From NCBI RefSeq assembly GCF_000716445.1, contig NZ_JNWK01000018.1, positions 44,310 through 108,309 on the forward strand: a DNA stretch of 64,000 bases, given 5' to 3'. The position numbers and the translations under genes are program-made. This stretch comes from Streptomyces wedmorensis (lineage in GTDB: Bacteria > Actinomycetota > Actinomycetes > Streptomycetales > Streptomycetaceae). Shown here one piece after another: positions 3 through 20,770 of this stretch; the first letter of the stretch is position 1; every line of letters begins with the position of its first letter. Below the pieces are notes generated by a model that saw nothing but the letters and a program-made list of their open reading frames with translations, searched no databases and was not told the DNA's origin.

Positions 3-2759
3 GCGCGGTTCCGGTTGTTGGTGGCGGCGCTGAAGGCGTGTGGGGAACGGCGGCTGAGTGCGGCGCCCGCGTTTCCGATCAATGTGGCGGTGGGGGACTC
101 GCTGCTGCATGGGCGGGGGGCGGAGTCTGTTACGGAGACGCTGGACACGTTGTTTGGTGGCGGGGACGAGGGAATGTTCGCGTACCGGACGGAGGATGTG
201 CGGGAGTACGCAGAGCGGGTAGATCTGCTGGGGCGGGGGACGTATCACGTTGTAGTGGGGAATCCGCCTTACATCGAGGTTAGCGACGAACAGGAGATCA
301 AGAACTATCGGGCAGCGTATGTCTGTTCCAATAAATTCCCGCTCTCCGTTCCTTTTGCTCAGAGGCTGTTCGAGCTCGCTGTTCGTTCGAATGTCTTGGA
401 AGTCCAGGGGGGTCGCGTTGGGCAGATCACTTCCAATTCGTTCATGAAGAGGAATTCAGGTAAGCGTCTAATCGAGGAGTTCTTTCCCGGGGTTTCTCTG
501 AGTCATATTATTGACGTTTCGCGTGCGCATATTCCCGGACATAATCGCGAGGGTACGCCAACGGTCGTCTTGGTCGGCGAAAACAGGATTCCTTCTCGCC
601 GCACTTCGGTGCGGATGGTGACTGGCTTGAAGGGGGGCGACGGTTCTGCCGGAGACGGCCCAATTCATCAGCGTCAACCGTGGTTGTCTATCGCGGATCA
701 GGCGAACGGAATCGGGGACGCGGAGGATGGCTGGTCTGCTGCTGGTGAGGTCCCGCGAGACTATCTGGCGAAGCATCCTTGGATGCTCCCTGGAGGTGGA
801 CGGGAGCAACTGCGTTCCACTCTCGCGAATGGTTCAACGCCTCTGAAGTCCATTATCGAGCCGCCGATTGGGCGAGCTGTGAGAGTTGGCGCGGATGCGG
901 CCTTTGTGCGACCGCTGCATTGTATTGGACGGGGTGAGGCGAACGCAAAGTTCCTTAGGGGGTTCTTGACTGGCCGCTCGGTGCGGGATTGGAGTGCCGT
1001 CGGCGCGGAAGGGATTCTCTACCCCTATGCTGGCGAGGCGTCTCCGGAGGTTCTGGCTCGCGAGCTCTGGCCGTGGAGGACCCTCTTGGCTGCACGTCGC
1101 ACCTTCAAAGGGGATATGGCCGATGCTGGGCTCGAATGGTGGGAGTACATGCAGCACACGGAATCTGCATATGCGACTCCACTTTCGATCACATTTGCCT
1201 TCAAGGCGTCGCATAATCATTTCAGCCTGGATCGCGGGGGTAACGTTTTCAATCGACATGCCCCGATCATTAAGCTAACGTCCAGTGCGGATTTGCGTGC
1301 TCATTACTCCCTGCTTGCCGTTCTGAATTCTTCTGTGTCGTGTTTCTTGATGCGGGAAGCCGCGCAGCATCAGGGCGGCGGCTCGGCCGGGCATCCCTGG
1401 TCGTGGACCATGGAGTTCACCGGAGGAATTGTCCAGAATCTACCGATCCCTGATGGGTCGTTTGACTCCTTCGGGGAGGAGCTGGATGAGCTTTCGCGTA
1501 CTCTGCTTTCGCATGAGCCCGCTAATGTACTGAATTCTGGCATGCCGAGTCGTCAGCGAATGGAGGCTGCGCGAGCCGAGGACGAGCAGACGCGCGCCAA
1601 CATGATTGGCCTGCAGGAGGAGTTGGACTGGGTTGTGTACGGTGCTCATGGTCTCCTCGATCGCGCAGAGATCGCCCGCACGTTGCTGCCTGACGGGATC
1701 GAACCGCCCAGGGTGGCTCTGGGGCAGCGGGCATTTGAGATCGTTCTAGCTCGAAAGGAAGGTGACGGCGAAACTAGTTCGGGATGGTTTAATCGGAGTG
1801 ACGTGATTCGTAGCACGGAGATTCCTGACGACTGGTCTGACCAATATAAGGCCATTGTGCAGGCTCGGATCGATGTTATTAACTCCAGGCGAGACATCGC
1901 TCTCATTGAGAGACCTGAATGTAAGCGTCGATGGGAAAGTAGGCGATGGGAGGACAGAGAGAAGGAAGCGCTCAAATCCTGGCTGCTTAACGCTTGTGAG
2001 CGCCGAGATTTGTGGTTCCATCTCAGGGATGGATTCCCTTCCCCGCGAACACTGAGTGTCAACCAGCTTGCCGATGCACTCCGCAGTGACCCTGAGGTGA
2101 GTGTCGTCGCTGAACTGTACGCCGAGCATTCGGGAAGTCGAGATGTTACCCTTGTGGACATTCTTGCGGACGTACTCGACGTGGAGCATGTGCCGTATCT
2201 GGCTGCATTGCGTTACACAGACTCTGGGCTGCGCAAGCACGCGCAATGGCGTGATGTTTGGATCAGGCAGCGACGAGAGGACGAAGGAGTATCTCCTAGT
2301 GATATCTCCGTCCCGCCTGAGTATGTGAATAGCGGCAGTCGACTCGACTTCCTCAAGGCGTCCTACTGGTCCCACCGCGGCAAGCTGGACGTCCCCAAGG
2401 AGCGGTTCATCTCGTACCCGGACGCGTCGCCCGACTCCGACCCGACCATTCTCCTCGGCTGGGCTGGCTGGGATCACAAGGATCAGGTGCAGGCGCTGGT
2501 CAACGTAATCAACGACCGCACCGAGCAGGCCGGTTGGGACACGCCGCGGCTCACCCCGCTCATCGCCGGCATCCAGGAACTGATGCCCTGGGTCCACCAG
2601 TGGCACGGCGAGCATGACGAAGAGTGGGGCGGCACGCCGTCCGAGGAGTACCAGGCGTACCTGGACGAGCAGCGCGCCAAGCATGGCCTCTCAGTGGAGG
2701 GCCTTACGGCCTGGCGCCCGGAGAAGAAGAAGGGCGGTAGGGCCAAAAAGGCCGACTGA
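3..2759 (+). CDS. pglX: BREX type 2 adenine-specific DNA methyltransferase PglX (5' end outside window)
   Basis: PglX is the N6-adenine methyltransferase of the BREX type 2 (Pgl) phage-defence system; it marks host DNA and is needed for phage restriction. The frame is open from the first bases, so the true start lies upstream. About 918 residues are visible of a protein normally near 1,200. The catalytic NPPY motif of N6-adenine methyltransferases is at about visible residue 87 (GNPPYIEV), and a long target-recognition and C-terminal region follows. pglW, normally upstream, is not in the window. Codons from about 290 to 2330 use clearly more A/T at third positions than the last 420 bases or the flanking genes, which suggests recombination in the specificity region. 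The gene ends in a Lys-rich tail and faces a hairpin terminator. The family call is firm because pglY, pglZ, brxD and brxHI lie downstream. Confidence 0.9.
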   Translation, partial: ARFRLLVAALKACGERRLSAAPAFPINVAVGDSLLHGRGAESVTETLDTLFGGGDEGMFAYRTEDVREYAERVDLLGRGTYHVVVGNPPYIEVSDEQEIKNYRAAYVCSNKFPLSVPFAQRLFELAVRSNVLEVQGGRVGQITSNSFMKRNSGKRLIEEFFPGVSLSHIIDVSRAHIPGHNREGTPTVVLVGENRIPSRRTSVRMVTGLKGGDGSAGDGPIHQRQPWLSIADQANGIGDAEDGWSAAGEVPRDYLAKHPWMLPGGGREQLRSTLANGSTPLKSIIEPPIGRAVRVGADAAFVRPLHCIGRGEANAKFLRGFLTGRSVRDWSAVGAEGILYPYAGEASPEVLARELWPWRTLLAARRTFKGDMADAGLEWWEYMQHTESAYATPLSITFAFKASHNHFSLDRGGNVFNRHAPIIKLTSSADLRAHYSLLAVLNSSVSCFLMREAAQHQGGGSAGHPWSWTMEFTGGIVQNLPIPDGSFDSFGEELDELSRTLLSHEPANVLNSGMPSRQRMEAARAEDEQTRANMIGLQEELDWVVYGAHGLLDRAEIARTLLPDGIEPPRVALGQRAFEIVLARKEGDGETSSGWFNRSDVIRSTEIPDDWSDQYKAIVQARIDVINSRRDIALIERPECKRRWESRRWEDREKEALKSWLLNACERRDLWFHLRDGFPSPRTLSVNQLADALRSDPEVSVVAELYAEHSGSRDVTLVDILADVLDVEHVPYLAALRYTDSGLRKHAQWRDVWIRQRREDEGVSPSDISVPPEYVNSGSRLDFLKASYWSHRGKLDVPKERFISYPDASPDSDPTILLGWAGWDHKDQVQALVNVINDRTEQAGWDTPRLTPLIAGIQELMPWVHQWHGEHDEEWGGTPSEEYQAYLDEQRAKHGLSVEGLTAWRPEKKKGGRAKKAD

Positions 2760-2785
2760 GCCCGCGTGTACAGCCGCGTATAGAT

Positions 2786-2828
2786 GAGGGCGCCCCGCCG
2801 ACGGCACGGTCCGTTGGCGGGTGCCCTC
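2786..2828. terminator. hairpin terminator between pglX and the convergent DUF397 gene
   Basis: A 14-base arm GAGGGCGCCCCGCC at 2786-2799 pairs with GGCGGGTGCCCTC at 2816-2828, with one base unpaired. It sits between two converging stop codons, so it can end transcripts from both sides. It has no U-tract, as is common in Streptomyces. Confidence 0.65.
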
Positions 2829-2841: not shown

Positions 2842-3048
2842 TCAGCCTTGCGCGGTGAACTCCACGAAGGCAGCCCATTTTTCAGGCGCCAGGGACAGGC
2901 GCGGCCCTTCCATGTCCTTCGAATCCCGGACGTACACGGTGCCGGGGCGTACAGCGACCTCAACGCACTGGCCGCCCTCGGCGCCGCTGTAGCTGCTCTT
3001 GCGCCATGCGAGTTCGAGGGCGCTAGCGGTGGTGTCTGCGACGTTCAT
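2842..3048 (-). CDS. DUF397 domain protein (BldB-like small partner of the XRE regulator)
   Basis: A 68-residue protein with the DUF397 pattern: WRKSSYSG near residue 15, then an acidic/polar stretch and VRDSK. DUF397 proteins occur in streptomycetes next to XRE-DUF5753 regulators and RsbW-like ATPases, as in the whiJ neighbourhood, where they affect development. The ATG at 3048 overlaps the regulator's stop (ATGA), indicating translational coupling; the longer frame back to 3090 lacks this logic. Its molecular function is unknown; an antagonist role toward the XRE protein is inferred from family context. Confidence 0.85.
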   Translation of the reverse strand: MNVADTTASALELAWRKSSYSGAEGGQCVEVAVRPGTVYVRDSKDMEGPRLSLAPEKWAAFVEFTAQG

Positions 3049-3902
3049 ACTTCTCCCAGCAGCTTCTCGATGAAGGCCAGAGACTCCCATGGGGTGAGAG
3101 CCTGCGCTCGGATGATCCCATAGCGCGCCGCAAGCGCGCGGACCTCCTCTCGATCCGTCACCAGCGTGCTCCGCCCCTGGGCCTCCATGTATCCGAACTG
3201 ATTGCCACCGCGTTGAGTCATCAGCGTGAAGGGGCCGTCCACGCCGGCGTTGTCCTGTCGGTCGAGCGGCATGACCTGGAGCTCGACGTTGCGCCTCTGT
3301 GCGACCAGACGGATCTGTTCGAGCTGGCCCCTCTGCACAGACCTTCCGCCGAGCGGGCGCCGCAGGGCGGGCTCCTCCATGACGAAGCTGAGCAGCGGAG
3401 AAGGTTGCCGATTGAAGATCTCTTGGCGAGTCATCCGAGCCGTAACGCGCTGCTCGATGATGTCCTCATTCAGTAGCGGGCGGCGCATGGTTAGTAGAGC
3501 TCGGGTGTACTCCTCTGTCTGCAACAGGCCGTTGACTACGTGGTTGTCGTACACGTGAATCTCAGCGGCCTCCATCTCCAACCGCGCCGCGTCCCGAAAG
3601 AACGCCGGATACTGCGCCCGCGCCACCTCCCTCTTCCCCGCCTTCAACACCCCACCCGCATCCAGCACCTCATCCGCCTGGTCGATGAACCTCGGCGGCG
3701 GAATCCGTCTCCCCTGCTCGAACGACGCGATCGTCGACGCCGAGTACCCCGTCCGCGCCCCCAGCTCCGCCCGTTCAACCCCCGCCCGCACCCGGCACAG
3801 CTTCAACTGCTGACCGAAGAGGTGCAGGATCCCCGATCCGGACTCATCCCCGCCCCCACCCCTGGCCTCGTAGCTGTCCTCGGACCCCTGCTGCTCCACC
3901 AC
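3045..3902 (-). CDS. XRE-family regulator with DUF5753 domain (WhiJ type)
   Basis: A DNA-binding regulator of 285 residues. Residues about 28-75 form an XRE helix-turn-helix (GQQLKLCRVRAGVERAELG followed by a GYSASTIASFEQG recognition helix). The rest is the DUF5753 sensor-like domain, with the typical LLQTEEYTRALL and late WESLAFIEKLL. I chose GTG at 3902 because GGAGG lies 8 bases upstream; the frame extends to 3953 without a better ribosome site, and GTG at 3899 is also possible. It is coupled to the DUF397 gene and divergent from the ATPase gene at 4024, completing a WhiJ-type trio. The regulated promoter is probably the one between the divergent genes; the ligand is unknown. The trio interrupts the BREX gene order. 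Confidence 0.88.
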   Translation of the reverse strand: MVEQQGSEDSYEARGGGGDESGSGILHLFGQQLKLCRVRAGVERAELGARTGYSASTIASFEQGRRIPPPRFIDQADEVLDAGGVLKAGKREVARAQYPAFFRDAARLEMEAAEIHVYDNHVVNGLLQTEEYTRALLTMRRPLLNEDIIEQRVTARMTRQEIFNRQPSPLLSFVMEEPALRRPLGGRSVQRGQLEQIRLVAQRRNVELQVMPLDRQDNAGVDGPFTLMTQRGGNQFGYMEAQGRSTLVTDREEVRALAARYGIIRAQALTPWESLAFIEKLLGEV

Positions 3903-4023
3903 GCCCGGCACCTCCGCAACCCGCCCCGCACCACGTACACCGCGCGCCACCAACGCGTACAGCCCGTACCGTCAGCGCGTCACTCCTGGTCAACGGTACG
4001 CACGCTCCGCAACCGTTCTCCGC

Positions 4024-4506
4024 ATGAACCAGGCAATTACTCCTCCCGTGGTGGAACAACAACACCCGACCACCACCCACGAGTTCACGATGCAGTTCAC
4101 CTCCACCCCACGCGGAGCCCGTCTCGCCCGCCGGCTCGTCTCCCACCGGCTCGACGACTGGGGCCACCCCTACACCTCCACCCCCAACGAGACCCTCACC
4201 CTCATCGCTGCCGAACTCACCGCCAACGCCGTCCGCCACGGCCACGTCCCCGGCCGCGACTTCCGCCTCCGCCTGCTCCTCGTCGCCACAACCCTCCGCA
4301 TCGAGGTCACCGACACCCGTACGGAGAGGCAGCTCAACACCGACCTCACGCACGCACCACCGCCGACCGAGGAATCAGGCCGGGGCCTCTACCTCGTCCG
4401 CCACCTGGCCGACCGCCTCGGCTGGTTCCCTCGTGTAGGCGCTCCCGGTAAGACGGTCTGGGCCGAACTCGACCTCCTCGCACCACCACTCGCCGCATCC
4501 TCATAA
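4024..4506 (+). CDS. RsbW-like ATP-binding (HATPase_c) regulatory protein
   Basis: A 160-residue GHKL-fold protein of the anti-sigma/serine-kinase type. It has an N-box (ELTANAVRHG, about residues 63-72), a D-containing G1 region (IEVTDTRTERQ) and a G2-like box (ESGRGLYLVRHLADRLGW). Streptomycetes carry many copies beside XRE-DUF5753 and DUF397 genes, where they help set developmental or antibiotic output. It diverges from the XRE gene across a short promoter region. The partner protein cannot be told from sequence. Codon use is typically streptomycete, unlike the middle of pglX. Confidence 0.85.
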   Translation: MNQAITPPVVEQQHPTTTHEFTMQFTSTPRGARLARRLVSHRLDDWGHPYTSTPNETLTLIAAELTANAVRHGHVPGRDFRLRLLLVATTLRIEVTDTRTERQLNTDLTHAPPPTEESGRGLYLVRHLADRLGWFPRVGAPGKTVWAELDLLAPPLAASS

Positions 4507-4603: not shown

Positions 4604-6532
4604 GTGAAGATCAAGCGTGTACGCATCGAGAACTTCTGCTGCCTGCACAAGGTGGACATCGCCTTCGACGAGATCACCTCGTTCATCGGCCCGACCGGCG
4701 TCGGCAAGTCCACCGTGCTCCGCGCACTCGACTGGTTCTTCAACGGCGAAAAGTCGGTGGCCCTCACCACTGACGACATCCACTCGGCGGTGGCAGGTGC
4801 CGGCGGCGAGCGCATCTCCGTCGAGGTCGAGTTCGACGGACTGACCGACTTCGACCGAGAGGCCCTCGGCCGGTACGCCCCCGACGACGCCACCACCGTG
4901 AGCATCTGGCGTACCGGGGACAACGGTGAGGACAAGATCACCGGCAAGGCACTCGCGTACGCGCCCTTCGACGAGATCCGGAGCGTGCTCGGCGGCGCGA
5001 TGACAAAGCGCAGGGCGTACAACGCCCTCCGGGACAGCACCCCGAGTCTCGGGATGCCTCCCGCCGGCAGCGAGAAGGCCGTGAACGAGGCCATGCTCGC
5101 CTGGGAGCGGGCGCACCGGGACCAGCTCACCGAGGCGGAGGTCGAGGACACCCACTTCTTCGGGTTCGCCGGGCAGAGCAAGCTCGCCCAGTTGATCGAC
5201 TTCGTCTTCGTCTCCGCCGACCTGCGCGCCTACGAGGAGGCCGACGACCAGAAGGCCTCTGCCATCGCTCGCATCCTCGACCACGCCGTCGACCGTACCG
5301 AGGCCGACGCCCAGCTCGGTGAGATCGAGGAGAACGCCCAGCTCGCCCGCCAGGCGGTCCACGACAACGTCTACGGTCCCGCTCTGAAGGACATCTCCGA
5401 CGCGCTCTCCGCCGAGGTCGCGAAGCTCACCACCGGGCGCCAGGTCATAGTCACCCCGACCGTACGGGCGCCGAGGCCGGCCAAGACCGCGTTCCAGGTG
5501 AGCATCAAGGACGGGGGTGCCGAGACGTCCGTGTACCGCCAGGGGCACGGCTTCCAGCGGGCGCTGATCATTGCCGCGCTGAAGTACCTGGCCGACCGCA
5601 GGCGGCCGGAGGGCGGGACCCGGACGCTGTGTCTGGCGGTCGAGGAGCCGGAGCTGTTCCAGCATCCGCCGCAGGCGCGGACGTTCGCGAAGGTACTGCG
5701 CGAGCTGGTGACCTCGTCCGCCGAGGGGCGTACGCAGGTGATGTACGCGACGCACAGTCCGGTCTTCATCGACCCGGCCGGCTATCACCAGGTCCGGCGG
5801 CTCACTCGCGACGCCGGGGCAGAGCACCCGGTCACCCGGGTGAGGCAGGTGACGGAGGACGAGCTGTGCCGGTCCCTGGAGGGGCTGGTGAAAGAGGAGG
5901 CCGTCCGGCGGCGTAGCGGCGTCGCGATGGCGGGGTCGCTCGCCGAGGCGTTCTTCGCCCACGCGGCGGTCCTGGGCGAGGGGACGACCGACGGCGCGCT
6001 GCTCGACGGCTGTGCCGAGCGGAACGGGATCAACCTCGGCGCCGAGGGAATCACCTACGTCGACGTGACCGGCAGGGATAATCTCCTGCTCAGCCACGCG
6101 ATCCTGTCCGCGATGGGCGTGCCCTGCCACGTGGTCTTCGACGGTGACGCCGGGATGGAGGAGCGCAAGCGCGAGTCGGTGCGGCACTTCGACGAGGAGA
6201 AGCGTGCGGAGAAGGAGGCTGCGTTCGAGCAGCAGGCGCGCAAGATCTCGGGGAGCAACGCGGACCTGCTCGGGTACTTGGGGGAGTCCAGGTCTCCCTG
6301 GCCGGAGACCGGTTCGGCCGGTACGTACACGGTGTTCGCGGACAACCTGGAGACGTATCTCGGGGAGAGCTGGCCCTCCTGGGGTGAGCGGCAGCAGCAG
6401 CTGATCGCCGCGGGCGAGGGCGTCTCGGACAAGAACGCGGCCACGTACCGGGAGGCGGCCCGCACGGCCGCGACAGCCCCGCCGTACGTACTCCAGGCGA
6501 TGCTGGAGAACGTCAGGGGGATGGTTCGCTGA
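4604..6532 (+). CDS. OLD-family ATP-dependent endonuclease (AAA ATPase plus TOPRIM)
   Basis: A 642-residue overcoming-lysogenization-defect (OLD) type protein: an ABC-like ATPase followed by a TOPRIM nuclease. Walker A is GPTGVGKST at about residues 30-38, the signature-like region QGHGFQRALIIAAL is near 312, Walker B VEEPELFQHP near 346 and the switch THSPVFID near 383. The TOPRIM part has GEGTTD near 458, DVTGRDN near 487 and FDGDAG near 511, the expected acidic metal-binding residues. Such proteins cleave DNA in anti-phage defence; GajA of Gabija is a relative. No UvrD-like GajB gene is adjacent, so this looks like a stand-alone OLD protein. The GTG start at 4604 has AGGA six bases before it. 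It lies within the BREX locus, between pglX and pglY. Confidence 0.88.
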   Translation: MKIKRVRIENFCCLHKVDIAFDEITSFIGPTGVGKSTVLRALDWFFNGEKSVALTTDDIHSAVAGAGGERISVEVEFDGLTDFDREALGRYAPDDATTVSIWRTGDNGEDKITGKALAYAPFDEIRSVLGGAMTKRRAYNALRDSTPSLGMPPAGSEKAVNEAMLAWERAHRDQLTEAEVEDTHFFGFAGQSKLAQLIDFVFVSADLRAYEEADDQKASAIARILDHAVDRTEADAQLGEIEENAQLARQAVHDNVYGPALKDISDALSAEVAKLTTGRQVIVTPTVRAPRPAKTAFQVSIKDGGAETSVYRQGHGFQRALIIAALKYLADRRRPEGGTRTLCLAVEEPELFQHPPQARTFAKVLRELVTSSAEGRTQVMYATHSPVFIDPAGYHQVRRLTRDAGAEHPVTRVRQVTEDELCRSLEGLVKEEAVRRRSGVAMAGSLAEAFFAHAAVLGEGTTDGALLDGCAERNGINLGAEGITYVDVTGRDNLLLSHAILSAMGVPCHVVFDGDAGMEERKRESVRHFDEEKRAEKEAAFEQQARKISGSNADLLGYLGESRSPWPETGSAGTYTVFADNLETYLGESWPSWGERQQQLIAAGEGVSDKNAATYREAARTAATAPPYVLQAMLENVRGMVR

Positions 6533-6619: not shown

Positions 6620-8281
6620 TCAACTGCACGCCCGAGACGTTTTCTCCGTCACCGCCACATCCTCCAGACGAACGGAAAGGGGCTCGCCCCGCCGTGGATC
6701 CCACAGCCAGACCCGGTCACCGGACGGGCCGAACGTCAGCAGCGGGCGAGCGGAGGCAAGCGGCCCGTTGAAGACCGCGATGTCCTCGCTCAGCGGCTTC
6801 ACGCAGACGAGGCTGCCCTGGATCCCGTAGTACCGAGCCGGATCGCGGCCGGACGCCACCGCCGCCCGCGCCCGGGACGAGTCGATCTGAGCAACGGCGA
6901 TTCCGGTCAGCAGAGTCATGCCCACGACGAAGAGGGTCATCAGCGCAAGTCCCACTCGCTCCATGCCGCGCACCCGAATGAGGTGGAAATGGCGGGCCCA
7001 CCCGGCGAGGGCCAGAACAACCGTGACACCCAGGGCTGCGGCGCCGACCGGCACGAGTGATGCCGCGTAGGACCAGTACACAGACACGGAGGCGGCTTCT
7101 GACGGAAGATCGAACGCACGCCGCAGGTAGACCGTGTGCATCAAGCCTCCGAACCAGGGGAGGGTGAGCCCGAGCGCGGGGATCAGAGCGGGCACCGCCC
7201 AGTTGGCGTTGCGGCTGAACCAGGAGTGCACGAAGGCGTACCTGAGGCCGTACGACACCGGGGGAATGAGAACCACGGTGACAGCGGCCCATGCGACCGT
7301 CTCTGCGGAGGGCGTACTCGCCACGATGCCCGGGACCTGCATCCCGATCACGACCGAAATGCCCACGAAGAGTGAGCCTCTTACAAGCGGGACGATCTGA
7401 GCCCCGGGCTCGCGACGGGGGGCGAGTTTCGTACCTACCGGCCACACCAGCGCGCATGCGATGAGGATCGGGAGCAGGACGAGCAGGGCTTCCGAAAGGG
7501 CGGCCACGTACCCGCATGCCACTCCTGCGATGGTGTAGGCCGAAAGGAGCAGCGCAGCAGGCCAGAGGTTGAAGGACTCAGCAGGGGCGTCCTCGGGATT
7601 CCGTCCTTCCATTCCCGCGGGGATACGCAGGTGGAGAATCCCTGGGTCGTAAGGGCGACGAGTGAAGGCCCCGCGCGCCAGCAGCTCAGCTACTGCCTCG
7701 ACACGCGGTCGGCCGTCCTGCTTGATGATCCGGACACTCGTCACCAAGCCCAACAGCTCACGCCAGGCGAAGATGCGGCTTCTGAAGTCCTGCCGTACGG
7801 AGGGTCCGGCCAGTGCCTCCCGACGCCCGCGGTAGGCATGCAGCACCGTCCGGTGGTCCACGGACAGCTCGTGTTCGACGAGTGCCGCATCCACCACCCA
7901 CATCCCCGCCTGATGCCGCCGTGCCAGCCACTCGATCTCCGAGACCGCCGCCTGCACCGCGCCGAACCGGGCTCCGTGCAGGCGCACTTCCACCAGCAGC
8001 CCCCGACGTCCGCTCCCCAGAGCGTCTTCCTCTTCGTCGCCGGGCACCCACGGCCGTACCGACCACCCCCGCCCCTCCAACAGCTGCGTCGACAGCTCCG
8101 ACTCCTCCGGGCTGTCGACCACCGCGACGAGTAACTCGACCCGCCGGTTGAACGGCTCGACAGGCAGTGGCGAGGGCGCCGGGTCCGCGCTGTCCTGGCG
8201 GCCACCGGAGCCATTGCCATCCCGCTGAGCCGGAATCGCCCTGCCCGTCCTGCCCGTCGTACGCCGAGACACCCGTCGCAT
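6620..8281 (-). CDS. membrane protein of unknown function with a cytosolic N-terminal domain
   Basis: A 553-residue protein I cannot place in a family. Residues 1-55 are basic and low in complexity. Residues about 55-225 look globular and soluble (VELLVAVVDSPEESE; repeated acidic and Trp-containing segments). Six to eight hydrophobic helices follow (for example LWPAALLLSAYTIAGVACGY, LLVLLPILIACALVW, WAAVTVVLIPPVSYGL), then an approximately 70-residue C-terminal segment predicted outside or cytosolic. The ATG at 8281 has GGAG about 10 bases upstream; the open frame continues to 8509 without support. It is divergent from the PIN gene and convergent with the OLD nuclease. Its position inside a defence locus allows a membrane effector or sensor role, but nothing in the sequence proves this. 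Confidence 0.7.
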   Translation of the reverse strand: MRRVSRRTTGRTGRAIPAQRDGNGSGGRQDSADPAPSPLPVEPFNRRVELLVAVVDSPEESELSTQLLEGRGWSVRPWVPGDEEEDALGSGRRGLLVEVRLHGARFGAVQAAVSEIEWLARRHQAGMWVVDAALVEHELSVDHRTVLHAYRGRREALAGPSVRQDFRSRIFAWRELLGLVTSVRIIKQDGRPRVEAVAELLARGAFTRRPYDPGILHLRIPAGMEGRNPEDAPAESFNLWPAALLLSAYTIAGVACGYVAALSEALLVLLPILIACALVWPVGTKLAPRREPGAQIVPLVRGSLFVGISVVIGMQVPGIVASTPSAETVAWAAVTVVLIPPVSYGLRYAFVHSWFSRNANWAVPALIPALGLTLPWFGGLMHTVYLRRAFDLPSEAASVSVYWSYAASLVPVGAAALGVTVVLALAGWARHFHLIRVRGMERVGLALMTLFVVGMTLLTGIAVAQIDSSRARAAVASGRDPARYYGIQGSLVCVKPLSEDIAVFNGPLASARPLLTFGPSGDRVWLWDPRRGEPLSVRLEDVAVTEKTSRACS

Positions 8282-9946: not shown

Positions 9947-10582
9947 GTGAGCGGGGGCACAGAGAGCAGCGGAGGCGCCGCGGCGCCGTCACGGTGGGCG
10001 CGGGAGTGCTTCGGAAAGCAGGCGAGCGGGCTGGTCGCGGGGATTCCGAAACGGCTGGCGCGTGCTCATCAGCGGGCGAGGATCGCGCACGACCAGGCCG
10101 ATCTCAAGAAGCGCGGGCCGTACGGGCACGTCCTGGCCGAGGCCGTGCTGGAAGAGCTGGCGGACGAAGCCCGCGCCCTCGGAGGATCGGTCCGTGAGCT
10201 CCGTGGCTACGACTTCGCCGTCCTCAACGGATGGGCCCTCTTCCCCTTCAAGTATGCCGACCGGCCGGTCCCTCTCGATCGTGCCCGGTTGCGTGCCGAC
10301 GTTTCCGCCCAGCGAAAGCGCCTGCTGACAGCGCACGGTCCCGAGCCGCGGGAAGGGCTGTTTCCCCTGGAAGAGGTTTCGACCACCCCGGAGTACGACA
10401 AGATCCACGAGGTGTTCGAGGAGCTCGGACGCAGCACCAAACTGGTCTCGGTCTTCTTCACCGCCAGCCGCGGTGAGGGCATCCACTCCATTCACTGGGG
10501 GGAGGCGCACCTCGAGGACGACCGCACCTTCACCTGGTCGCCGGTGGAGCCTCTTCCTCTGTACACGGCCAAGGGCCGGTGA
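9947..10582 (+). CDS. uncharacterised 211-residue protein upstream of pglY
   Basis: I do not recognise this protein. It is soluble and mixed alpha/beta with no signal peptide. Notable segments are an Arg/Lys-rich helix (IPKRLARAHQRARIAHDQAD), a YGHVLAEAVLEELADEA helix, a LRGYDFAVLNGWALFPFKYAD core near the middle, and a late strand region rich in aromatic residues (FFTASRGEGIHSIHWGEAHL). The GTG at 9947 has AGGGGGC six bases upstream; an ATG-type frame extending to 9686 would overlap the PIN gene and is unlikely. It lies 126 bases before pglY on the same strand, so it could be read with the BREX operon. The dense aromatic/Gly core hints at a ligand- or protein-binding module, but no function can be assigned. 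Confidence 0.75.
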   Translation: MSGGTESSGGAAAPSRWARECFGKQASGLVAGIPKRLARAHQRARIAHDQADLKKRGPYGHVLAEAVLEELADEARALGGSVRELRGYDFAVLNGWALFPFKYADRPVPLDRARLRADVSAQRKRLLTAHGPEPREGLFPLEEVSTTPEYDKIHEVFEELGRSTKLVSVFFTASRGEGIHSIHWGEAHLEDDRTFTWSPVEPLPLYTAKGR

Positions 10583-13700: not shown

Positions 13701-14569
13701 AAAGGGCTGCCAAGATCTTCGGAGTGGCGGTCCAGCCCACCCTCTTCGCGCGGAACGTGAACAAGCTCCACACCGGCGTACGGGAAAAGATCAGCCAGTA
13801 CGAGCAGGCGGTCTACGGGGTCCGGACGTCTCTGATCCGGCATGCGGAAGCCCTGGGGCTGGATTCGGACACCAGCGCACGGGCGTCGTCCGCGAAGGAC
13901 GCCGCGGATCTCCTCGCTCGCCTGGGGCGTCACCACGAAGCGACCGCGACGGTCAGGGAACTTGCCGGTGTCTCGTATGCCACATCGGACGCGGCGCTGG
14001 CCACGGCCATCACGTCCGCCCCCGAGGTGCTCAAGGCGCTCGACGACGCCGACTGGCAGCTTCTCGACAGTGTCCGTGGCTTCGCCGGGCGGCGGGACAA
14101 CGTCGGCGAGCGGGCCGAGCGGTTGATCGGGGAGATCGCCGAGGCCGCCGCCGCGAGTGAATTCGAACGCTCGCTGGTCCCGGTCCTGGACTCCATCCGC
14201 AGCAAGGCCGTCGCACTGGTCAAGGACGCCGCTCGGCTGGCTCAGGTGGCGGAACCGGTAGTACCGCTGCCCCCTGTCGAGCCGACCCCGGACGATGTCC
14301 GCCTCACCCAGCACGGCACACCACCCGTATCGTCCACACGCTCGACGCCGGGACCCGGCGCCTCCGTGGGCACGGGGGGTGCGGCGGGCTCCCGGACCGT
14401 ACGCCTGCAGCCGAGCCACATGGAGAACGCCCTGAGCAAGGCGATGGACAACCTCTGGGACGAGATCCTCGCCTACTCCGCCGCCAACCCCGGGATGGCA
14501 GTCGAGATCACCTGGCAGGTCGTGCCGCCGGAGGAGAGCCGGTCCGCAGGCGCCGAGGCGCAGTCCTGA
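10709..14569 (+). CDS. pglY: BREX type 2 P-loop ATPase PglY
   Basis: PglY is the large ATPase of BREX type 2, required with PglW, PglX and PglZ for phage resistance in Streptomyces. The 1,286 residues match the family size. The N-terminus ([21 protein letters not shown]) is characteristic. Walker A is [10 protein letters not shown] at about residues 73-82 and the Walker B-like [12 protein letters not shown] is near 275. The C-terminal 250 residues are helical with a Pro/Gly linker before a last conserved helix pair ([19 protein letters not shown]). I start at ATG 10709, preceded by GAGGGAAC; an upstream in-frame GTG at 10676 is less consistent with the family N-terminus. The stop overlaps pglZ by one base (TGATG), so the two are translated together. 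Confidence 0.93.
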
Positions 14570-17313
14570 TGGCGGTGCGGCCGCTCATCGACCGCAGAAT
14601 CGTCGAAGCACTCCTCGAGACGGAGCTGCGGCGGGCCAAGGACCGCCGTCTCCTGTTGGTCCACGCCCGATACGACAGCGCGGCCCCCACCGACTTCACG
14701 GTCCGGATCGACGGTCGGCAGCGCCTGGTGCGGGTCACCGACCAGGATTCCGTTCTGGGAATCGTCGACGCGTGGCAGCGGCTCCTGGCCGAGCCCGAGC
14801 CCGACAGGCTGCTCGTGGTGACGAGCGATGTGCCGGCCACTGCTCTGGGCTGGGACCTGCGTGCCCATGCCGTCGGACGCCGCAGCCTCACGGTCGACCG
14901 GGCCGAGATCGTCAAGCAGCTCTTCGGGGCCGCCGACCTCGACCCTCGCGTGATCCGTGAGGCCTGGTTGCTCGACGCCCTGATCGATGCCGAGCCCGCC
15001 GACGGTTGGCCGCGTGACGGATCCGTCCTCACACGGGATGCCGCCGTAAAGGCACTTGTCGGTGAACGTCTGGGGCTGGGTCGTGCAGCAGGGGGGCACG
15101 CCCCCGATCTGGACACCAATGCGTTGCTGGCCTGGTCCCGGACCACTGCGGGTCCGGCTCGCTTCCGAGAGCTGGCCGCATCGGAGCGCGACGGGCTGAC
15201 CGACTGGCTCAGCGGCGTGATCGGGTCGGCCGCACCCACACTTCTCGCGCTCATCGCGGACGGCAGGGGACAGGACGCCTTGGCCCTCGGTGTCCTCGGC
15301 TCCGTATTGAGCGCGCCGGATGCTCCGGCCGGAACGAGCTTCGCGCTTGGAGGCCTGTTCGGTTCGACCCTGCGTTCGGTGGACGACCTACCCCCCTTCA
15401 CCTCCTCTGTGATCGGCACGCTCGCACGATGGATCGGCGAGGCCGAAGCCAACAGCGCTTCGGGCGCCGAAGCACGGCAGCGTGTCTACGCGGTACTCGA
15501 CCGAGCCGACCAACTCGCGGCCGAAGCCGGACTGGGGCAGGCTCTGCGGGTCGATCCCCTGCTGCCCTCCGGACTCAAGGCGCGCTTGAGAGATCTGGCC
15601 GCCGCTCTGGCGACCTCTGCCGAAGAGGCCGAGGCAGCGCTGAACCACGTCCTGGCCCATCAGCTGGCCCGCCTGCACCCGGCCAGCTGCCATGCCGCAC
15701 GCATGGCGGTGCGCGTCCTGCGATGGCTCGACGGGCCGACTCCTGTCGTGGCATCGGTGGGACAAGGGGTCAGCGAACACTTTGCTCAATGGGGGTGGGT
15801 CGACCGTGCGCTTGCCGTCCTGGCGGAGGGTGACCCGCTCGGGGAATCAGCCGTGGGCCAGGCGTACCACCTGCTCATCGGGAAGGCCCGTGACCGGCGC
15901 GCGGCCATCGACGAGCAGTTCGCTGCCCGATTGTCGGGTTGGGCCCTGACCGCCTCGACACAGGCGCCGGCGGGCGCTCTCCTCATCGAGGACGTGCTCA
16001 CCACCCTCGCCGTACCACTCGCCGGAGCGGGCAGGACGGCAGCGGCTCCGCTCGTGCTCGTACTGGACGGCATGAGCGCAGCCATAGCGGCGCAGCTCGG
16101 GGACGAGATCGACCGTCGTGTCTGGACGGAGATCGTCCCGGCGCCGCAAGGGGCGGAGGGCGCACGGCGTCAGGCGGCCGTGTCCATGCTGCCGTCGGTC
16201 ACCACCATCAGCCGGGCCTCGCTGCTGTCGGGGACAGCCACGAGCGGCAAGCAGCCGGCGGAGAGCAAGGGGTTCGCAGCTCTGTGGCAACGGCATCGGC
16301 GCACTGCGACGCTCTTTCACAAGGGCCGGATCGGCGGGGTCGAAGGCCACCGCCTTGCCCCTGAGCTGCTCGATGCGCTCGCCGGCGACGGGGTGGTGGG
16401 TGTCGTACTGAACACCATCGACGATGCGCTGGACCACGGGCAGGAGGGCGAACGCACCACCTGGCGGCTCAAGGACATCAGTCACTTGCTGGACCTGCTC
16501 AACGCCGCTCGCGGCTACGGCCGTCCCGTCCTGCTCGTCTCCGACCACGGCCACGTCATCGACCGTTCGCCCCCGGGCCGCGGACCGGTCAAGGCAGCGG
16601 GCGTGCAGAGCGCCCGCTGGCGCACGGGCACAGCCGGGGAGGGCGAAGTCGAGCTCAGCGGACCGCGCGTCCTGGCAGGCGAGGGCTCCATCGTGGCGCC
16701 ATGGCGTGAGGACATCAGGTACACACCGCGCAAGGCGGGGTACCACGGTGGGGCGTCGATCGCCGAGGTGACCGTGCCGGTGATCGCCTTGGTGCCGTCA
16801 CAGGAGCTGCTGCCGGCGGGGTGGGTCCTTCTGCCGCCCGAACAGAGCGTGCCGTCCTGGTGGGAACCTCGCACCGAGACCGCAGCCGTCGCGGAGCCGG
16901 AGGCTTCGGCGAGCCGCCGGGGCCGGAAGCCCAAGGAAGCGCAGGCCGGCGAGGGACTCTTCGCAGCGGACGACGTGGCACCGGAGACGCCGACGCTCGG
17001 CGACAAGGTCGTGCGGACACAGCGGTACACGGCACAGAAGGCGTTCGTCCGCAGGGCCCCGGACGCCAAGGCGGTGGCTGCTGTGATCGACGCGCTCACC
17101 GCGGCCGGTGGAAAGCTGACCCCGGACGCGGTCGCCGCCGCCGCGACCGCTGCCACCGGAAGGTCGCAGCGGAACCCCGAAATCTTCGTCACCGTGGTGC
17201 AGCGCCTTCTCAACGTCGAAGGCTACGGCGTGATCAATCTGGTGGACGCGGGACGGACCGTTGAGCTGAACGTCCCGCTTCTGCACGAGCAGTTCGGAAC
17301 GGAGCGTCCGTGA
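14569..17313 (+). CDS. pglZ: BREX type 2 alkaline-phosphatase-superfamily protein PglZ
   Basis: PglZ is the signature protein of all BREX systems and carries a metal-binding alkaline-phosphatase-like core. In this 914-residue copy the core motifs are LVLDGMSAA near residue 500 and LVSDHGHVI near 655, typical metal-site segments. The N-terminal 400 residues are the type-2-specific region, and the C-terminus includes a Lys/Arg linker (SRRGRKPKE) and a final helical domain. The ATG overlaps the pglY stop by one base, and its own stop overlaps the brxD GTG (GTGA), so the cluster is a tightly coupled operon. No frameshift or missing motif is visible. Confidence 0.93.
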   Translation: MAVRPLIDRRIVEALLETELRRAKDRRLLLVHARYDSAAPTDFTVRIDGRQRLVRVTDQDSVLGIVDAWQRLLAEPEPDRLLVVTSDVPATALGWDLRAHAVGRRSLTVDRAEIVKQLFGAADLDPRVIREAWLLDALIDAEPADGWPRDGSVLTRDAAVKALVGERLGLGRAAGGHAPDLDTNALLAWSRTTAGPARFRELAASERDGLTDWLSGVIGSAAPTLLALIADGRGQDALALGVLGSVLSAPDAPAGTSFALGGLFGSTLRSVDDLPPFTSSVIGTLARWIGEAEANSASGAEARQRVYAVLDRADQLAAEAGLGQALRVDPLLPSGLKARLRDLAAALATSAEEAEAALNHVLAHQLARLHPASCHAARMAVRVLRWLDGPTPVVASVGQGVSEHFAQWGWVDRALAVLAEGDPLGESAVGQAYHLLIGKARDRRAAIDEQFAARLSGWALTASTQAPAGALLIEDVLTTLAVPLAGAGRTAAAPLVLVLDGMSAAIAAQLGDEIDRRVWTEIVPAPQGAEGARRQAAVSMLPSVTTISRASLLSGTATSGKQPAESKGFAALWQRHRRTATLFHKGRIGGVEGHRLAPELLDALAGDGVVGVVLNTIDDALDHGQEGERTTWRLKDISHLLDLLNAARGYGRPVLLVSDHGHVIDRSPPGRGPVKAAGVQSARWRTGTAGEGEVELSGPRVLAGEGSIVAPWREDIRYTPRKAGYHGGASIAEVTVPVIALVPSQELLPAGWVLLPPEQSVPSWWEPRTETAAVAEPEASASRRGRKPKEAQAGEGLFAADDVAPETPTLGDKVVRTQRYTAQKAFVRRAPDAKAVAAVIDALTAAGGKLTPDAVAAAATAATGRSQRNPEIFVTVVQRLLNVEGYGVINLVDAGRTVELNVPLLHEQFGTERP

Positions 17314-18641
17314 CCGGTGTGACGGAGGTCAGCGCGGCCCGCCGCCGCGAAGTGGTGGACGCGCTGAGGCGCGGCACCGTGCCGCAAGCGGGGCTCGATC
17401 TGTTCGCGGTCGGTCTCGACCGCTTCGCCGCGGCCCTGGACGATGACCTTGCGACAGCGGCGCGCGGTGGGTCGGCGTTTCACGCCATTCGTGGTGAGTA
17501 CGGTTCCGGCAAGACGTTCTTCGCCCGCTGGCTCGCCGAGCGGGCCAAGCGCGCGGGGCTGGCCACCACGGAAGTGCAGATCTCCGAGACCGAAACCCCG
17601 CTTCACCGCTTGGAGACGGTCTACCGACGTCTCACGGAACGGCTCACCACAGCCACCCATCAGCCCAGCGCGCTCAAGGCGGTGGTCGATTCGTGGTTCT
17701 ACACCCTCGAGGAGGAGATCCTCGACGCCGGTGAAGTGGCGGACGACGACGAGAAGGCACTTGCCGTGGCCGTCGACGAACTGATGGAGCAGCGACTTGC
17801 CGAAGTCGCCCGGACGACGCCTGCGTTCGCGGCGGCCCTGCGCGGCTATCGGGAGGCGCGTGCTGCGGGCGACAACGCGACGGCCGAGGCGCTCATCGCC
17901 TGGCTGGGCGGGCAGAAGTCGGTCGCGGCCTCGGCCCGCAGAGCTGCGGGGGTCCGTGGAGACCTGGACCATTTCGGCGCCATGGGCTTCCTGCAGGGCC
18001 TGCTCACCGTGCTGCGTGACTGCGGCCACCCCGGACTCCTCGTGGTTCTCGACGAGATCGAGACCCTGCAGCGGGTGCGAGGCGATGTACGCGAGAAGGG
18101 GCTCAACGCCCTGCGGCAGCTGCTGGACGAGATCGACGCCGGACGTTTTCCCGGCTTGTTCCTCGTGATCACGGGCACGCCCGCGTTCTACGACGGTCAG
18201 CAGGGCGTCCAGCGGCTTGCCCCGCTGGCTCAACGCCTCGCCACCGACTTCACCACCGATCCTCGGTTCGACTCCCCGCGCGCGGTGCAACTACGCCTTG
18301 CCGGTTTCGATCTGCCGAGGCTGGGAGAGCTCGGGCGCAATGTCCGCGACCTGTACGCCGGTGCTGCACGGAACCCGGAACGGATCGGAGCGCGTGTCGA
18401 CGACACGTACCTGAGCGAACTTGCCACGGCGGTCACAGGTGGCCTCGGGGGAAAGGTGGGAGTCGCCCCCCGATTGTTCCTGCGCAAGCTCGTCGCCGAT
18501 GTCCTGGATCGTGTCGACGAGTTCGACGATTTCGACCCGCGTCGGCACTACGCGCTCACCGTGTCCGGTGCCGAGCTCAACGAGGTCGAGAGGAACGCCG
18601 CACGGGCTGACGCGGACGACATCGAGCTGGACCTTCCGTGA
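17310..18641 (+). CDS. brxD: BREX type 2 P-loop protein BrxD
   Basis: A 443-residue AAA-type ATPase found with pglZ and brxHI in BREX type 2 loci. Walker A is GEYGSGKTFF at about residues 61-70, Walker B is LLVVLDEIETLQR near 243, and a sensor-1-like LVITGTPAF follows near 288. The N-terminus (RRREVVDALRRGTVP) is typical of the DUF2791 family. Both ends use GTGA overlaps, with pglZ before and brxHI after, showing co-translation. The biochemical role is unproven; ATP-driven remodelling of the BREX complex on DNA is the usual suggestion. Confidence 0.9.
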   Translation: MTGVTEVSAARRREVVDALRRGTVPQAGLDLFAVGLDRFAAALDDDLATAARGGSAFHAIRGEYGSGKTFFARWLAERAKRAGLATTEVQISETETPLHRLETVYRRLTERLTTATHQPSALKAVVDSWFYTLEEEILDAGEVADDDEKALAVAVDELMEQRLAEVARTTPAFAAALRGYREARAAGDNATAEALIAWLGGQKSVAASARRAAGVRGDLDHFGAMGFLQGLLTVLRDCGHPGLLVVLDEIETLQRVRGDVREKGLNALRQLLDEIDAGRFPGLFLVITGTPAFYDGQQGVQRLAPLAQRLATDFTTDPRFDSPRAVQLRLAGFDLPRLGELGRNVRDLYAGAARNPERIGARVDDTYLSELATAVTGGLGGKVGVAPRLFLRKLVADVLDRVDEFDDFDPRRHYALTVSGAELNEVERNAARADADDIELDLP

Positions 18642-20770
18642 CCTCTCTCGACGACCTCGATCCCGTATTGACGCATCACATCGTCAACTCCCTGGGCTGG
18701 CGTGGCCTTCGTCCACTGCAGGAAGAGGCGATCGAACCACTGATGGCCGGTGAGGACGCGATCCTGCTGGCACCCACGGCAGGCGGAAAGACTGAGGCCG
18801 CCTCTTTCCCCCTGTTGTCGCGGATGTCCGCAGGGCGGTGGCAGGGCACCTCCGTCCTCTACGTGTGCCCTTTGAAGGCCCTGCTCAACAACCTGTTGCC
18901 GCGATTGGAGACGTATGCCTCGTGGCTCGGCCGTACCGCGGCTCTGTGGCACGGCGATGTCACCGCAGGCCACCGTAAACGCATTCTGAACAACCGGCCC
19001 GATGTCCTGCTCACCACGCCTGAGTCGCTGGAAGCCATGCTGGTCAGTGCGAACGTCGATCACAAGGCGTTCTTCTCCGGGCTGCGGACGATCGTGGTCG
19101 ACGAGGTACACGCCTTCGCGGGGGACGATCGAGGCTGGCATCTGCTCGCGCTCCTCGAGCGGCTGCAGAAGTCTGTCGGGCGTCCGATCCAACGCGTGGG
19201 CCTGTCAGCGACCGTAGGCAATCCGACGGAACTCCTCCATTGGCTCCAGGGGTCCGGAGCCGGCATTCGCCCGGCACGAGTGGTCGCCCCCCACCTCGCC
19301 GCTCCGAGCGATACGAGTCCTGCGACACAGCCGCCCTCGGGCGACATCCAGCTCGACTACGTCGGTTCCGTCGAGAACGCGGCCCGGGTGATCTCTTCCT
19401 TGCACCAGGGAGAGAAGCGGCTCGTCTTCTGCGAGTCACGGCGACTCGTGGAAGAACTGGGCGAGCAGTTGCGTATCCGAGGAGTCACCACCTTCCTCTC
19501 GCACGCCTCACTGTCGGTCGATGAACGGCGGCGTGCCGAGCAGGCGTTCGCGGAGGCGCGGGACTGCGTGATCGTCTCGACCAGCACCCTGGAACTCGGC
19601 ATCGATGTCGGAGACCTGGACCGGGTCATTCAGATCGACGCCCCGGCGACTGTCGCGTCCTTCCTCCAGCGGCTCGGCAGAACGGGGCGGAGGGCCGATA
19701 CGACGCGGAACTGTCTCTTCCTTGCGCTGACGGAAGACGGACTGTTGTCGGCGGCCGGCATGCTCCTCCTGTGGTCACGAGGCTGGGTGGAGCCGGTCGT
19801 CGCCCCACCCGAGCCGCGTCACATCGTCGCTCAGCAGCTCCTTGCTCTCTGCCTCCAGGAACACCAGGTCGGAGACCAGCTGTGGCGGGAGTGGTGGAAC
19901 GGCCTGGGGCCGTTCGGACAGCCCGCGGAGCCGGTTGTGAAGCACCTCGTGAACGAGGGCTACCTCGATCGTGACGGCGGCATGCTCTTCATCGGCCCGG
20001 AGGCGGAACGACGCTTCGGGCACCGGCACTTCATGGGCCTCACGGCTGTCTTCACCGCGCCCCCCCAGTTCACTGTGTTCCAGGGCCGTACGGAAATCGG
20101 CCGTACCGACCCGGATCTCTTGACGGAGGAGGTCGAGGGGCCGCGAAAGCTTCTCCTCGCGGGCCGCAGCTGGGTGGTCACGTACATCGACTGGCGCCGC
20201 AAACGATGCTACGTAGAGCCGACCGACGGGGGCGGAAAAGCGAAGTGGAGCGGACTCGGATTCACCCGCGCGACATCGTTCGAGCTGACCCGAGCGGTCC
20301 GCGAGGTGCTTCTGGGGGCGGATCCGCCGGTGAACCTCACCAAGCGGGCCGTGGCCTCTCTCGCTGACGCGAGAGACCATTTCATGGACGCGGTACATCC
20401 GGTCGGAACACTGATCGTGCGCGGAGCCGGCGGATATACGCGTTGGTGGACCTGGGCAGGGCACCGGGCCAATGCCACGCTCGCCAGTTCGCTCAGCGCG
20501 GTAGCCGTCCCTGCGCAGCACGTCAACGATTGTTGGGTCCGCCTCAGGGAAGACGTCGATCCGCAGGTCTGGAAGCAAGCACTCGCAGACGCATCAGGAC
20601 AGCTGTGCCTCCCTGAGGTGGACGCCCGGGCGGTGAAGGGGCTGAAGTTCGGCGAGGCGCTTCCGCCCCGACTTGCCGAATCGACCCTTGCGGCGCGCTT
20701 CTCCGACCTGGTGGGGGCGCAGACCGTGTTGGACGAACCGACGCGATTCATGGCGGGCCTGGGTACCTGA
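18638..20770 (+). CDS. brxHI: BREX type 2 Lhr-like superfamily 2 helicase BrxHI
   Basis: A 710-residue DEAD/DEAH-like helicase that ends the BREX type 2 operon. Visible motifs are Q-like LRPLQEEAIEPL, Walker A APTAGGKTEA near residue 45, DEVHAF near 153, SATVGNP near 190, TSTLELGIDVGD near 315 and the arginine-finger motif QRLGRTGRR near 344. The rest is an Lhr-type C-terminal region. The GTG start overlaps the brxD stop by four bases. The helicase is expected to move on DNA or strip phage DNA of bound proteins, but its exact role in BREX is not settled. Confidence 0.92.
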   Translation: MTSLDDLDPVLTHHIVNSLGWRGLRPLQEEAIEPLMAGEDAILLAPTAGGKTEAASFPLLSRMSAGRWQGTSVLYVCPLKALLNNLLPRLETYASWLGRTAALWHGDVTAGHRKRILNNRPDVLLTTPESLEAMLVSANVDHKAFFSGLRTIVVDEVHAFAGDDRGWHLLALLERLQKSVGRPIQRVGLSATVGNPTELLHWLQGSGAGIRPARVVAPHLAAPSDTSPATQPPSGDIQLDYVGSVENAARVISSLHQGEKRLVFCESRRLVEELGEQLRIRGVTTFLSHASLSVDERRRAEQAFAEARDCVIVSTSTLELGIDVGDLDRVIQIDAPATVASFLQRLGRTGRRADTTRNCLFLALTEDGLLSAAGMLLLWSRGWVEPVVAPPEPRHIVAQQLLALCLQEHQVGDQLWREWWNGLGPFGQPAEPVVKHLVNEGYLDRDGGMLFIGPEAERRFGHRHFMGLTAVFTAPPQFTVFQGRTEIGRTDPDLLTEEVEGPRKLLLAGRSWVVTYIDWRRKRCYVEPTDGGGKAKWSGLGFTRATSFELTRAVREVLLGADPPVNLTKRAVASLADARDHFMDAVHPVGTLIVRGAGGYTRWWTWAGHRANATLASSLSAVAVPAQHVNDCWVRLREDVDPQVWKQALADASGQLCLPEVDARAVKGLKFGEALPPRLAESTLAARFSDLVGAQTVLDEPTRFMAGLGT

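Follow-up and report, generated by a model that had tools for sequence, protein, structure and literature searches.

The stretch of DNA analyzed here (the window; 64,000 nt, positions 44,310-108,309 of the forward strand of NZ_JNWK01000018.1) comes from Streptomyces wedmorensis (GCF_000716445.1, genome G000 in our numbering) and opens inside a complete bacteriophage exclusion (BREX) type 2, or phage growth limitation (Pgl), locus, in which seven genes separate pglX from pglY. Our results revealed that such a gap is common among streptomycete BREX-2 loci and that it almost always holds a WhiJ-type regulator, while its other contents vary. Genomes are cited below by G numbers and individual stretches by L numbers, the same-contig stretch upstream of the window being L003.

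The BREX type 2 locus of S. wedmorensis

Profile searches identified the PglX, PglY/BrxC, and PglZ core together with PglW, BrxD, and BrxHI. The gene order is pglW, a ProA-like gene, pglX, a DUF397 gene (minus strand), a whiJ-type gene (minus), a HATPase gene (plus), an OLD nuclease gene (plus), a membrane protein gene here called MEM (minus), a PIN_8 gene (plus), a gene here called ORPH (plus), pglY, pglZ, brxD, and brxHI. PglW (1542 bits) lies upstream of the window, and the window start cuts pglX, the N6-adenine methyltransferase gene of BREX-2. The window holds the 3' part of pglX (3..2759, plus strand; 918 of 1229 codons), and the whole gene begins ~930 bp upstream (L003:11070-14759, 1229 aa; NF033451 1538.8 bits for the whole protein, cut-off 400; PDLC02529). 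From the pglX stop to the pglY start, the gap spans 2760-10708 (7,949 bp) and contains the WhiJ-type trio and the OLD, membrane, PIN, and 211-aa protein genes, as a reading made earlier from the sequence alone (the sequence-only reading) had described.

The trio comes first in the gap. The DUF397 protein (2842..3048, minus; 68 aa, BldB family, PF04149 74.9 bits) is followed by the WhiJ-type regulator (3045..3899, minus), with an XRE helix-turn-helix and a DUF5753 domain (PF13560; PF19054 165.6 bits) and an assignment also backed by the trees below. A divergent intergenic region (3900..4023) then leads to a 160-aa HATPase_c_2 protein (4024..4506, plus; PF13581 46.3 bits), which is AbaA/OrfA-like and anti-sigma-like. 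The cargo consists of a 642-aa OLD family nuclease with ABC/AAA_15 ATPase and TOPRIM domains (4604..6532, plus; PF13175, PF20469, PADLOC Old 163.8 bits), the 553-aa protein MEM (6620..8281, minus; without a match in Pfam, PADLOC, or NCBIfam), a 466-aa PIN_8 domain protein with an extra C-terminal part (8427..9827, plus; PF18476 202.9 bits), and the 211-aa ORPH (9947..10582, plus; no Pfam match). Beyond the gap, pglY (10709..14569, plus; BrxC-type ATPase, 1286 aa, PDLC02488 1461.1 bits) falls below the NCBIfam cut-off (NF047891 1055.9 bits versus 1700), and it is followed by pglZ (14569..17313, plus; 914 aa, PDLC02565 838.4 bits), brxD (17310..18641, plus; 443 aa, PF10923, PDLC02494), and the helicase gene brxHI (18638..20770, plus; 710 aa, PDLC02503 1072.1 bits). 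The overlaps of 1 to 4 bases that the sequence-only reading had seen from pglY to brxHI were measured as 1 base (pglY/pglZ), 4 (pglZ/brxD), and 4 (brxD/brxHI).

Between pglW and pglX (L003:6026-10993) lies the gene for a 1655-aa DUF4011/AAA_11/AAA_12/MTES_1575 protein, a superfamily 1 (SF1) helicase (PDC-S37). It scored 1157.5 bits against the model for the anti-phage protein ProA (NF058533), under the cut-off of 1500, and is called ProA-like only. Among the 59 other stretches of the first sample, in some of which the pglW-pglX junction fell outside the stretch, this gene was matched in G150 and G239 only.

The pglX-pglY gap and its WhiJ-type regulator

A search for PglY in 297 genomes of the family gave matches in 65, and 59 full-length matches besides that of the window were fetched, each with pglY and ~15.6 kb upstream of it (less at contig ends). 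pglX fell within the stretch at 58 of these 59 loci, the exception being G198, whose trio a later stretch (L237) showed to adjoin pglX. Neither G198 nor the window enters the gap count. A gap of more than 600 bp separates the two genes at 39 of the 58 loci (median 5,913 bp; 217 kb summed), and compact junctions of at most 325 bp are found at the other 19. An accessory pocket between pglX and pglY is hence a feature of two thirds of the surveyed streptomycete BREX-2 loci, and in S. coelicolor the pglWX and pglYZ operons are reported to lie 6 kbp apart (PMC4365076). These counts correct the view, also held in the sequence-only reading, that pglX and pglY are normally adjacent. To characterize the variable contents, we scanned 106 proteins of at least 110 aa, besides the trio and cargo relatives, from the gaps, an insert in G139, and the gap of Streptomyces sp. 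A0642. They matched 112 Pfam and 134 PADLOC families, and QatC, PDC-M28, PD-T4-6-like kinases, Mko-type helicases, and PIN were among the matches listed (20 chosen proteins were also scanned singly). The pocket is a general accessory site with variable, largely defense-type genes (Qat, PDC-M28, kinases, helicases), that is, with unrelated insertions of the kind that the sequence-only reading had named as speaking against a nested island.

The constant part of the gap is a regulator of the WhiJ/BldB/AbaA kind, an XRE-DUF5753 protein with a DUF397 protein and often a HATPase. The sequence-only reading had listed the trio in the window and gave its constancy no weight. WhiJ-type genes were counted by tblastn, with downstream stretches queried with the window WhiJ alone (our own gene caller misses some trio genes), and were found in 38 of the 39 gaps, the exception being the 919-bp gap of G185. 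As a background, we used 18 genomes (~148 Mb), all BREX-2 carriers that we had picked ourselves, which carry 12-34 WhiJ-type regulators each. Because they gave 390 DUF5753 matches in total, chance alone would place ~0.6 WhiJ genes in the 217 kb of gaps, versus the 38 gaps occupied. Compact junctions are no test by themselves because they have no room for a WhiJ gene. WhiJ is found elsewhere in the cluster at 5 of the 19 compact loci: it lies just upstream of pglW in G080 and G235, and between pglW and pglX in the second G044 locus and in G280. In G139 (L220, G139:C1:7842000-7858000), the trio and ~7.7 kb of cargo sit between pglZ and brxD, together with a 705-aa type III-A retron reverse transcriptase. 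Upstream and downstream stretches showed no WhiJ at 13 of the 19, and G202, with a weak partial match ~7 kb upstream of pglW, was left out of the counts.

A second sample of 382 genomes, 87 of them with PglY, provided a replication in which six loci were fetched without a prior look at their gaps. WhiJ was in the gap at all four loci with pglX and a gap, and it lay ~9 kb before pglY at a fifth locus, where pglX was outside the stretch; the sixth was compact without WhiJ. In all, nine PglY places of this sample were fetched, namely these six and three found through MEM, in addition to those that the first sample had covered. A set of 23 named loci included 5 already in the first sample (L147, L151, L156, L162, L165). 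Among the 18 new ones, 5 have a gap with WhiJ (L143, L144, L148, L149, L158), and 10 have compact junctions and no WhiJ within the stretch (L145, L146, L150, L152, L153, L154, L155, L157, L159, L160). At one of the named loci, that of S. atratus OK807 (L189/L143), a 524-aa open frame on the opposite strand interrupts the HATPase gene. It resembles an IS605-type TnpB by eye only, Pfam giving no match, and the upstream SF1 helicase was called there as two pieces.

The phylogeny of the regulators points to more than one origin of this association. Our main WhiJ tree held 48 BREX WhiJ, 50 control paralogs (30 top-scoring and 20 middle-scoring), and 3 WhiJ from the vicinity of MEM or PIN relatives. 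Before a first tree was built, L237 and L184 had been dropped because they duplicate the G198 and G080 loci, and L067 (a distant partial match) and L241 (a near copy of the window) were additionally dropped before the second. One 32-row clade (support 100/100) contained 29 of the 48 BREX WhiJ, 2 of the 3 MEM- or PIN-linked ones, and 1 of the 50 controls. The BREX label needs 9 changes on the WhiJ tree, at least 7 of them forced by well supported branches, and the first tree united in one subclade (100/99) WhiJ whose PglY clades are only ~36% alike. Because of these label changes and this shared subclade, we conclude that BREX-2 acquired WhiJ-type regulators more than once and that one WhiJ type moves between distant BREX-2 systems. 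Two loci outside recognizable BREX-2 contexts carry regulators of the main BREX clade: in L248 (G326), a WhiJ trio lies beside a MEM relative with no BREX-2 genes in the stretch, and in L179 (G178), a WhiJ-DUF397 pair lies beside a PIN relative with only a weak PglX-like match (33%).

Cargo genes and the mosaic history of the locus

The sequence-only reading had suggested that the OLD, membrane, PIN, and orphan genes may travel with BREX as a set, an idea that holds only narrowly, within one PglY lineage of 8 loci, and fails for general BREX cargo. Our genome-wide survey covered MEM, PIN, and ORPH in the 297 genomes and found relatives of ORPH in 52, of MEM in 41, and of PIN in 31, of which only 2, 3, and 3 genomes, respectively, the window genome included, have them in a pglX-pglY gap. 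In G080, a further PIN relative (38%) is located immediately before pglW. General travel of these three families with BREX was therefore rejected, their relatives being mostly elsewhere, and no preference for BREX of the kind the sequence-only reading had asked about is seen among them.

Within the lineage (the window, G533, G150, G384, S. atratus, A0642, G540, and G239, 8 loci in 8 genomes), MEM and PIN are present in 8 of 8, OLD in 7 of 8, and ORPH in 6 of 8, and the order of the genes present is constant. In this lineage the cargo has stayed with pglY across several species. The MEM count is biased for G533, G384, and G540, which were found through MEM; the four relatives found through PglY (G150, G239, S. 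atratus, and A0642) all have both MEM and PIN. For G533, G150, G384, S. atratus, A0642, G540, and G239, in that order, identity to the window is 99, 95, 90, 86, 86, 82, and 76% for PglY; 98, 93, 83, 74, 72, and 67% for OLD, which is absent from the last; and 97, 95, 83, 76, 75, 71, and 65% for PIN. Judged by this shared rank order, OLD and PIN co-diverge with PglY. Ratios of nonsynonymous to synonymous divergence (dN/dS) of 0.08-0.35 for OLD, PIN, ORPH, and MEM against G533, G150, and G384 (ORPH being absent in G384) indicate purifying selection on the cargo set within the lineage.

A strict-threshold search of the second sample for MEM gave matches in 13 genomes: G000, four at 54-92% identity, and eight at 34-40%. 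BREX-2 gaps hold three of the four closer matches; the fourth, in G400, is next to a ProA-like gene without BREX. Seven of the eight distant loci were read (G024, from the earlier sample, G342, G479, G557, G326, G390, and G440; G354 was left out), and no BREX protein was found in their stretches. In one of them, G326, a WhiJ trio stands beside MEM.

The OLD protein is of the single-gene kind, with ABC ATPase and TOPRIM in one protein and its motifs kept. Walker A, the EE of Walker B, and the TOPRIM acidic residues are retained in all 7 lineage copies, with some variation at adjacent positions, as are four acidic positions of PIN_8 in all 12 copies compared; we take these to be the catalytic residues. 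Two known systems were considered for the set and rejected: Gabija (GajAB), no UvrD-like helicase GajB being found beside OLD, whose neighbors are the HATPase and MEM, and PARIS (AriA/AriB), in which ATPase and TOPRIM are separate, here being joined in one 642-aa protein. MEM has at least 46 relatives. Its structural model (mean predicted local distance difference test score, pLDDT, 74.4; predicted template modeling score, pTM, 0.45), read together with hydropathy and VIA-align, suggests with moderate confidence a ferredoxin-like N-terminal domain, ~7 transmembrane helices, and a small C-terminal beta domain. The 211-aa protein, which the sequence-only reading had taken for an orphan, has 38 relatives. 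Its model (pLDDT 81.6, pTM 0.80) weakly resembles restriction-endonuclease folds in VIA-align, and no conserved (D/E)xK was found among invariant or nearly invariant alignment columns.

Synonymous divergence (dS) indicates that the locus is a mosaic. Between the window and G150, two groups separate: PglY, OLD, PIN, and ORPH have dS values of 0.27-0.45, whereas those of PglX, the trio, and MEM are 0.63-0.81 (82 codons were compared for HATPase and 55 for DUF397). In the comparison with G533 (L241), PglX alone stands out, with a dS of 0.81 versus 0.08-0.22 in its neighbors. Because of these contrasts, we conclude that PglX, the regulator, and MEM are exchanged piecewise. The window and L241 are otherwise nearly identical, and an exchange of pglX alone has taken place between them, which would fit a methyltransferase that determines specificity. 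In G400 (L243, G400:C5:444400-464300), a genome absent from the 87 in which PglY was matched, the same malate synthase site has a ProA-like gene (72%), MEM, and an SF1 helicase (77% identical to the A0642 one) next to it. This site reads as a relic of the island or as one of its earlier states.

A putative WhiJ-controlled pocket and its alternatives

The whiJ-HATPase intergenic region carries three direct repeats, CGTACA, CGTACA, and CGTACC, 22 and 9 bp apart, which we propose as a WhiJ operator. Of 51 whiJ upstream regions (L040, the same gene as L237, being left out), 12 contain CGTAC[AC] pairs spaced by 9-11 or 20-22 bp, versus 0.05 pair-bearing regions on average, and at most 2, in 300 shuffles of the set; the distant WhiJ of G139 has four such units. 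The 17-mer at 3954-3970 has no second exact copy anywhere in the genome. A described precedent is iosA-whiJ9-bldB9 of S. venezuelae, reported to combine an XRE regulator, a DUF397 protein, and a HATPase with direct repeats in the intergenic region to which the regulator WhiJ9 binds (PMC10294661). The repeat differs (CGTAC[AC] in the window versus CGXXCTCAAC for WhiJ9), and, unlike such described WhiJ-BldB-AbaA paralog clusters, the window trio is embedded in a BREX locus and has no known developmental role.

These features lead us to modestly favor a reading in which the gap is a WhiJ-controlled accessory pocket of BREX-2 with OLD and PIN as backup effectors. Specifically, the BREX-2 core would restrict unmodified phage, WhiJ would sit on the direct repeats of the divergent promoter, and its DUF397 partner would restrain or release it, presumably upon an inducing signal. 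WhiJ would thereby control transcription of the HATPase gene and, 97 bp farther on, of the OLD gene, and OLD (on DNA) and PIN (on RNA) could then act as backup or abortive effectors when the core is inhibited or overrun. Both effector classes have a precedent from 2026: PMC12839542 describes OLD-ABC ATPase nucleases in at least 1242 taxa, PIN endoRNases in BREX and related loci, and backup effectors including Schlafen, and the OLD-TOPRIM, PIN, and Schlafen classes are likewise found at the window locus. DUF397 and XRE do not occur in the main text of that paper, to which the term search was confined. The nearest precedent for a BREX-tied regulator is BrxR, a WYL-domain repressor in a BREX-bearing defense island, about half of whose homologs are reported with defense systems (PMC9122601). 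BrxR differs in belonging to another protein family and, reportedly, in its inverted rather than direct repeats and its mostly proteobacterial distribution.

A similar arrangement may exist in the Pgl system of S. coelicolor A3(2), where the XRE-DUF397 pair SCO6629/SCO6630 (PMC10364602) is numbered just after PglW, SCO6626 (PMC9739823), and PglX, SCO6627 (PMC1934918, which elsewhere lists SCO6627/28/37/38 for the Pgl system). Judging from these gene numbers, the pair would lie in the S. coelicolor gap. The window differs in that its gap carries OLD, MEM, PIN_8, and ORPH, and in having a ProA-like gene between pglW and pglX. A review in which neither pgl nor phage is mentioned gives 6629 as a whiJ-like gene present in roughly half of streptomycetes (PMC4255298). 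A link between the trio and Pgl or BREX-2 was not found in the literature searched, which included few subscription journals and no preprints. The system and its effector classes are known, and the tie of this regulator class to BREX-2 appears to be unreported.

Several observations weigh against this WhiJ-controlled pocket. The repeat pair is missing from 39 of the 51 whiJ upstream regions, including 5 of the 14 closest, and no near 17-mer site occurs in the rest of the locus; because there is no second exact repeat site, the repeats give no sign that pglW, pglY, MEM, and PIN are controlled by WhiJ. Cargo lies between WhiJ and the HATPase in L072, L074, L078, and L079, and therefore one promoter cannot serve all cargo. 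The dS split between the window and G150 likewise means that regulator and effectors were not kept together by descent, and within the lineage itself ORPH is absent from G384 and G239 and OLD from G239. Inserts without WhiJ occur at other junctions (pglZ-brxD in G073, ~3.0 kb; pglW-pglX in G042, ~3.6 kb). Among the named loci, L161 and L163 show a HATPase with no WhiJ in the stretch and pglX out of reach, and L164, a proteobacterial metagenome-assembled genome, has a ~2.1-kb gap without WhiJ. The tree controls were not random, and related loci are not independent. Finally, overexpressing SCO6629/30 reportedly changed nothing appreciable relative to the control (PMC10364602), an outcome that is, however, neutral for defense.

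A distinctly less probable explanation, to which we still give real weight, is that the gap is a tolerated insertion site, with WhiJ trios as mobile, addictive, or toxin-antitoxin-like elements and OLD, PIN, and the other genes as hitchhikers without a regulatory tie. The pocket is indeed dispensable (13 of the 58 loci have no gap and no WhiJ upstream or downstream), gap contents differ widely, and the HATPase gene of S. atratus is interrupted. DUF397-helix-turn-helix pairs have also been proposed as toxin-antitoxin modules (PMC7159879), although 14 XRE/DUF397 pairs of S. coelicolor are reported not to have behaved as such (PMC10364602). A merely tolerated site, however, fits poorly with a WhiJ in nearly every gap versus less than one copy expected, with more than one recruitment of WhiJ, with cargo under purifying selection, and with an unchanged block order in G540 at a PglY identity of 82%.

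It seems unlikely that MEM is functionally tied to the ProA-like helicase between pglW and pglX and not to OLD and PIN. All nine loci read with a close MEM (~46% or more), namely, the window, G533, G150, G239, G384, G540, A0642, S. atratus, and the BREX-less G400, show a ProA-like gene nearby, but eight of the nine are one BREX lineage, and G400 may be a deletion remnant. Further, the ProA-like parts read in G384 and G540 are only ~50% identical to the window's, versus 82-90% for PglY, and context was read for a minority of the MEM relatives. Least probable is the sequence-only version, in which OLD, membrane, PIN, and orphan genes form one nested defense system travelling with BREX as a unit: their order is the same in the window, G533, G150, S. 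atratus, A0642, and G540, but parts have been lost singly (G384, G239), a comparison of the window with G150 shows MEM to have a different history from OLD and PIN, the ORPH of G540 is 54% identical to the window's and thus farther than two unlinked copies (59 and 62%), G400 keeps the ProA-like gene, SF1 helicase, and MEM without a PglY match, and the PIN of G285 (no PglY match) is, at 71%, nearer than the BREX-locus PIN of G239 (65%).

If the pocket is WhiJ-controlled, it would explain why several suicide effectors are kept beside a restriction system, offer a testable job for a class of paralogs few of which have a known role, and provide a sequence marker for finding new defense genes. WhiJ/BldB/AbaA clusters have so far been studied as developmental and antibiotic regulators, and our results suggest that such developmental-type regulators may switch phage defenses on and off. 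A bolder and rather doubtful extension is that these clusters include a large class that mainly switches phage-defense pockets, which in BREX-2 was repeatedly recruited, is exchanged between distant BREX-2 types, and keeps a changeable set of suicide effectors silent until infection or a certain stage of mycelial development, so that colony development would be coupled to phage defense.

The right end of the island offers a further candidate member. Directly behind brxHI lies the gene for a 689-aa Schlafen group 3 helicase-domain protein (21052..23121, plus; PF09848 259.8 bits). It is not at that place in S. atratus (L143) or A0642 (L144), where malate synthase follows brxHI directly, and it probably belongs to the island. 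The malate synthase gene (23565..25187, minus; PF01274) forms the right chromosomal flank, which is common to S. atratus, A0642, and G400, with 92% identity to the L143, L144, and L243 copies.

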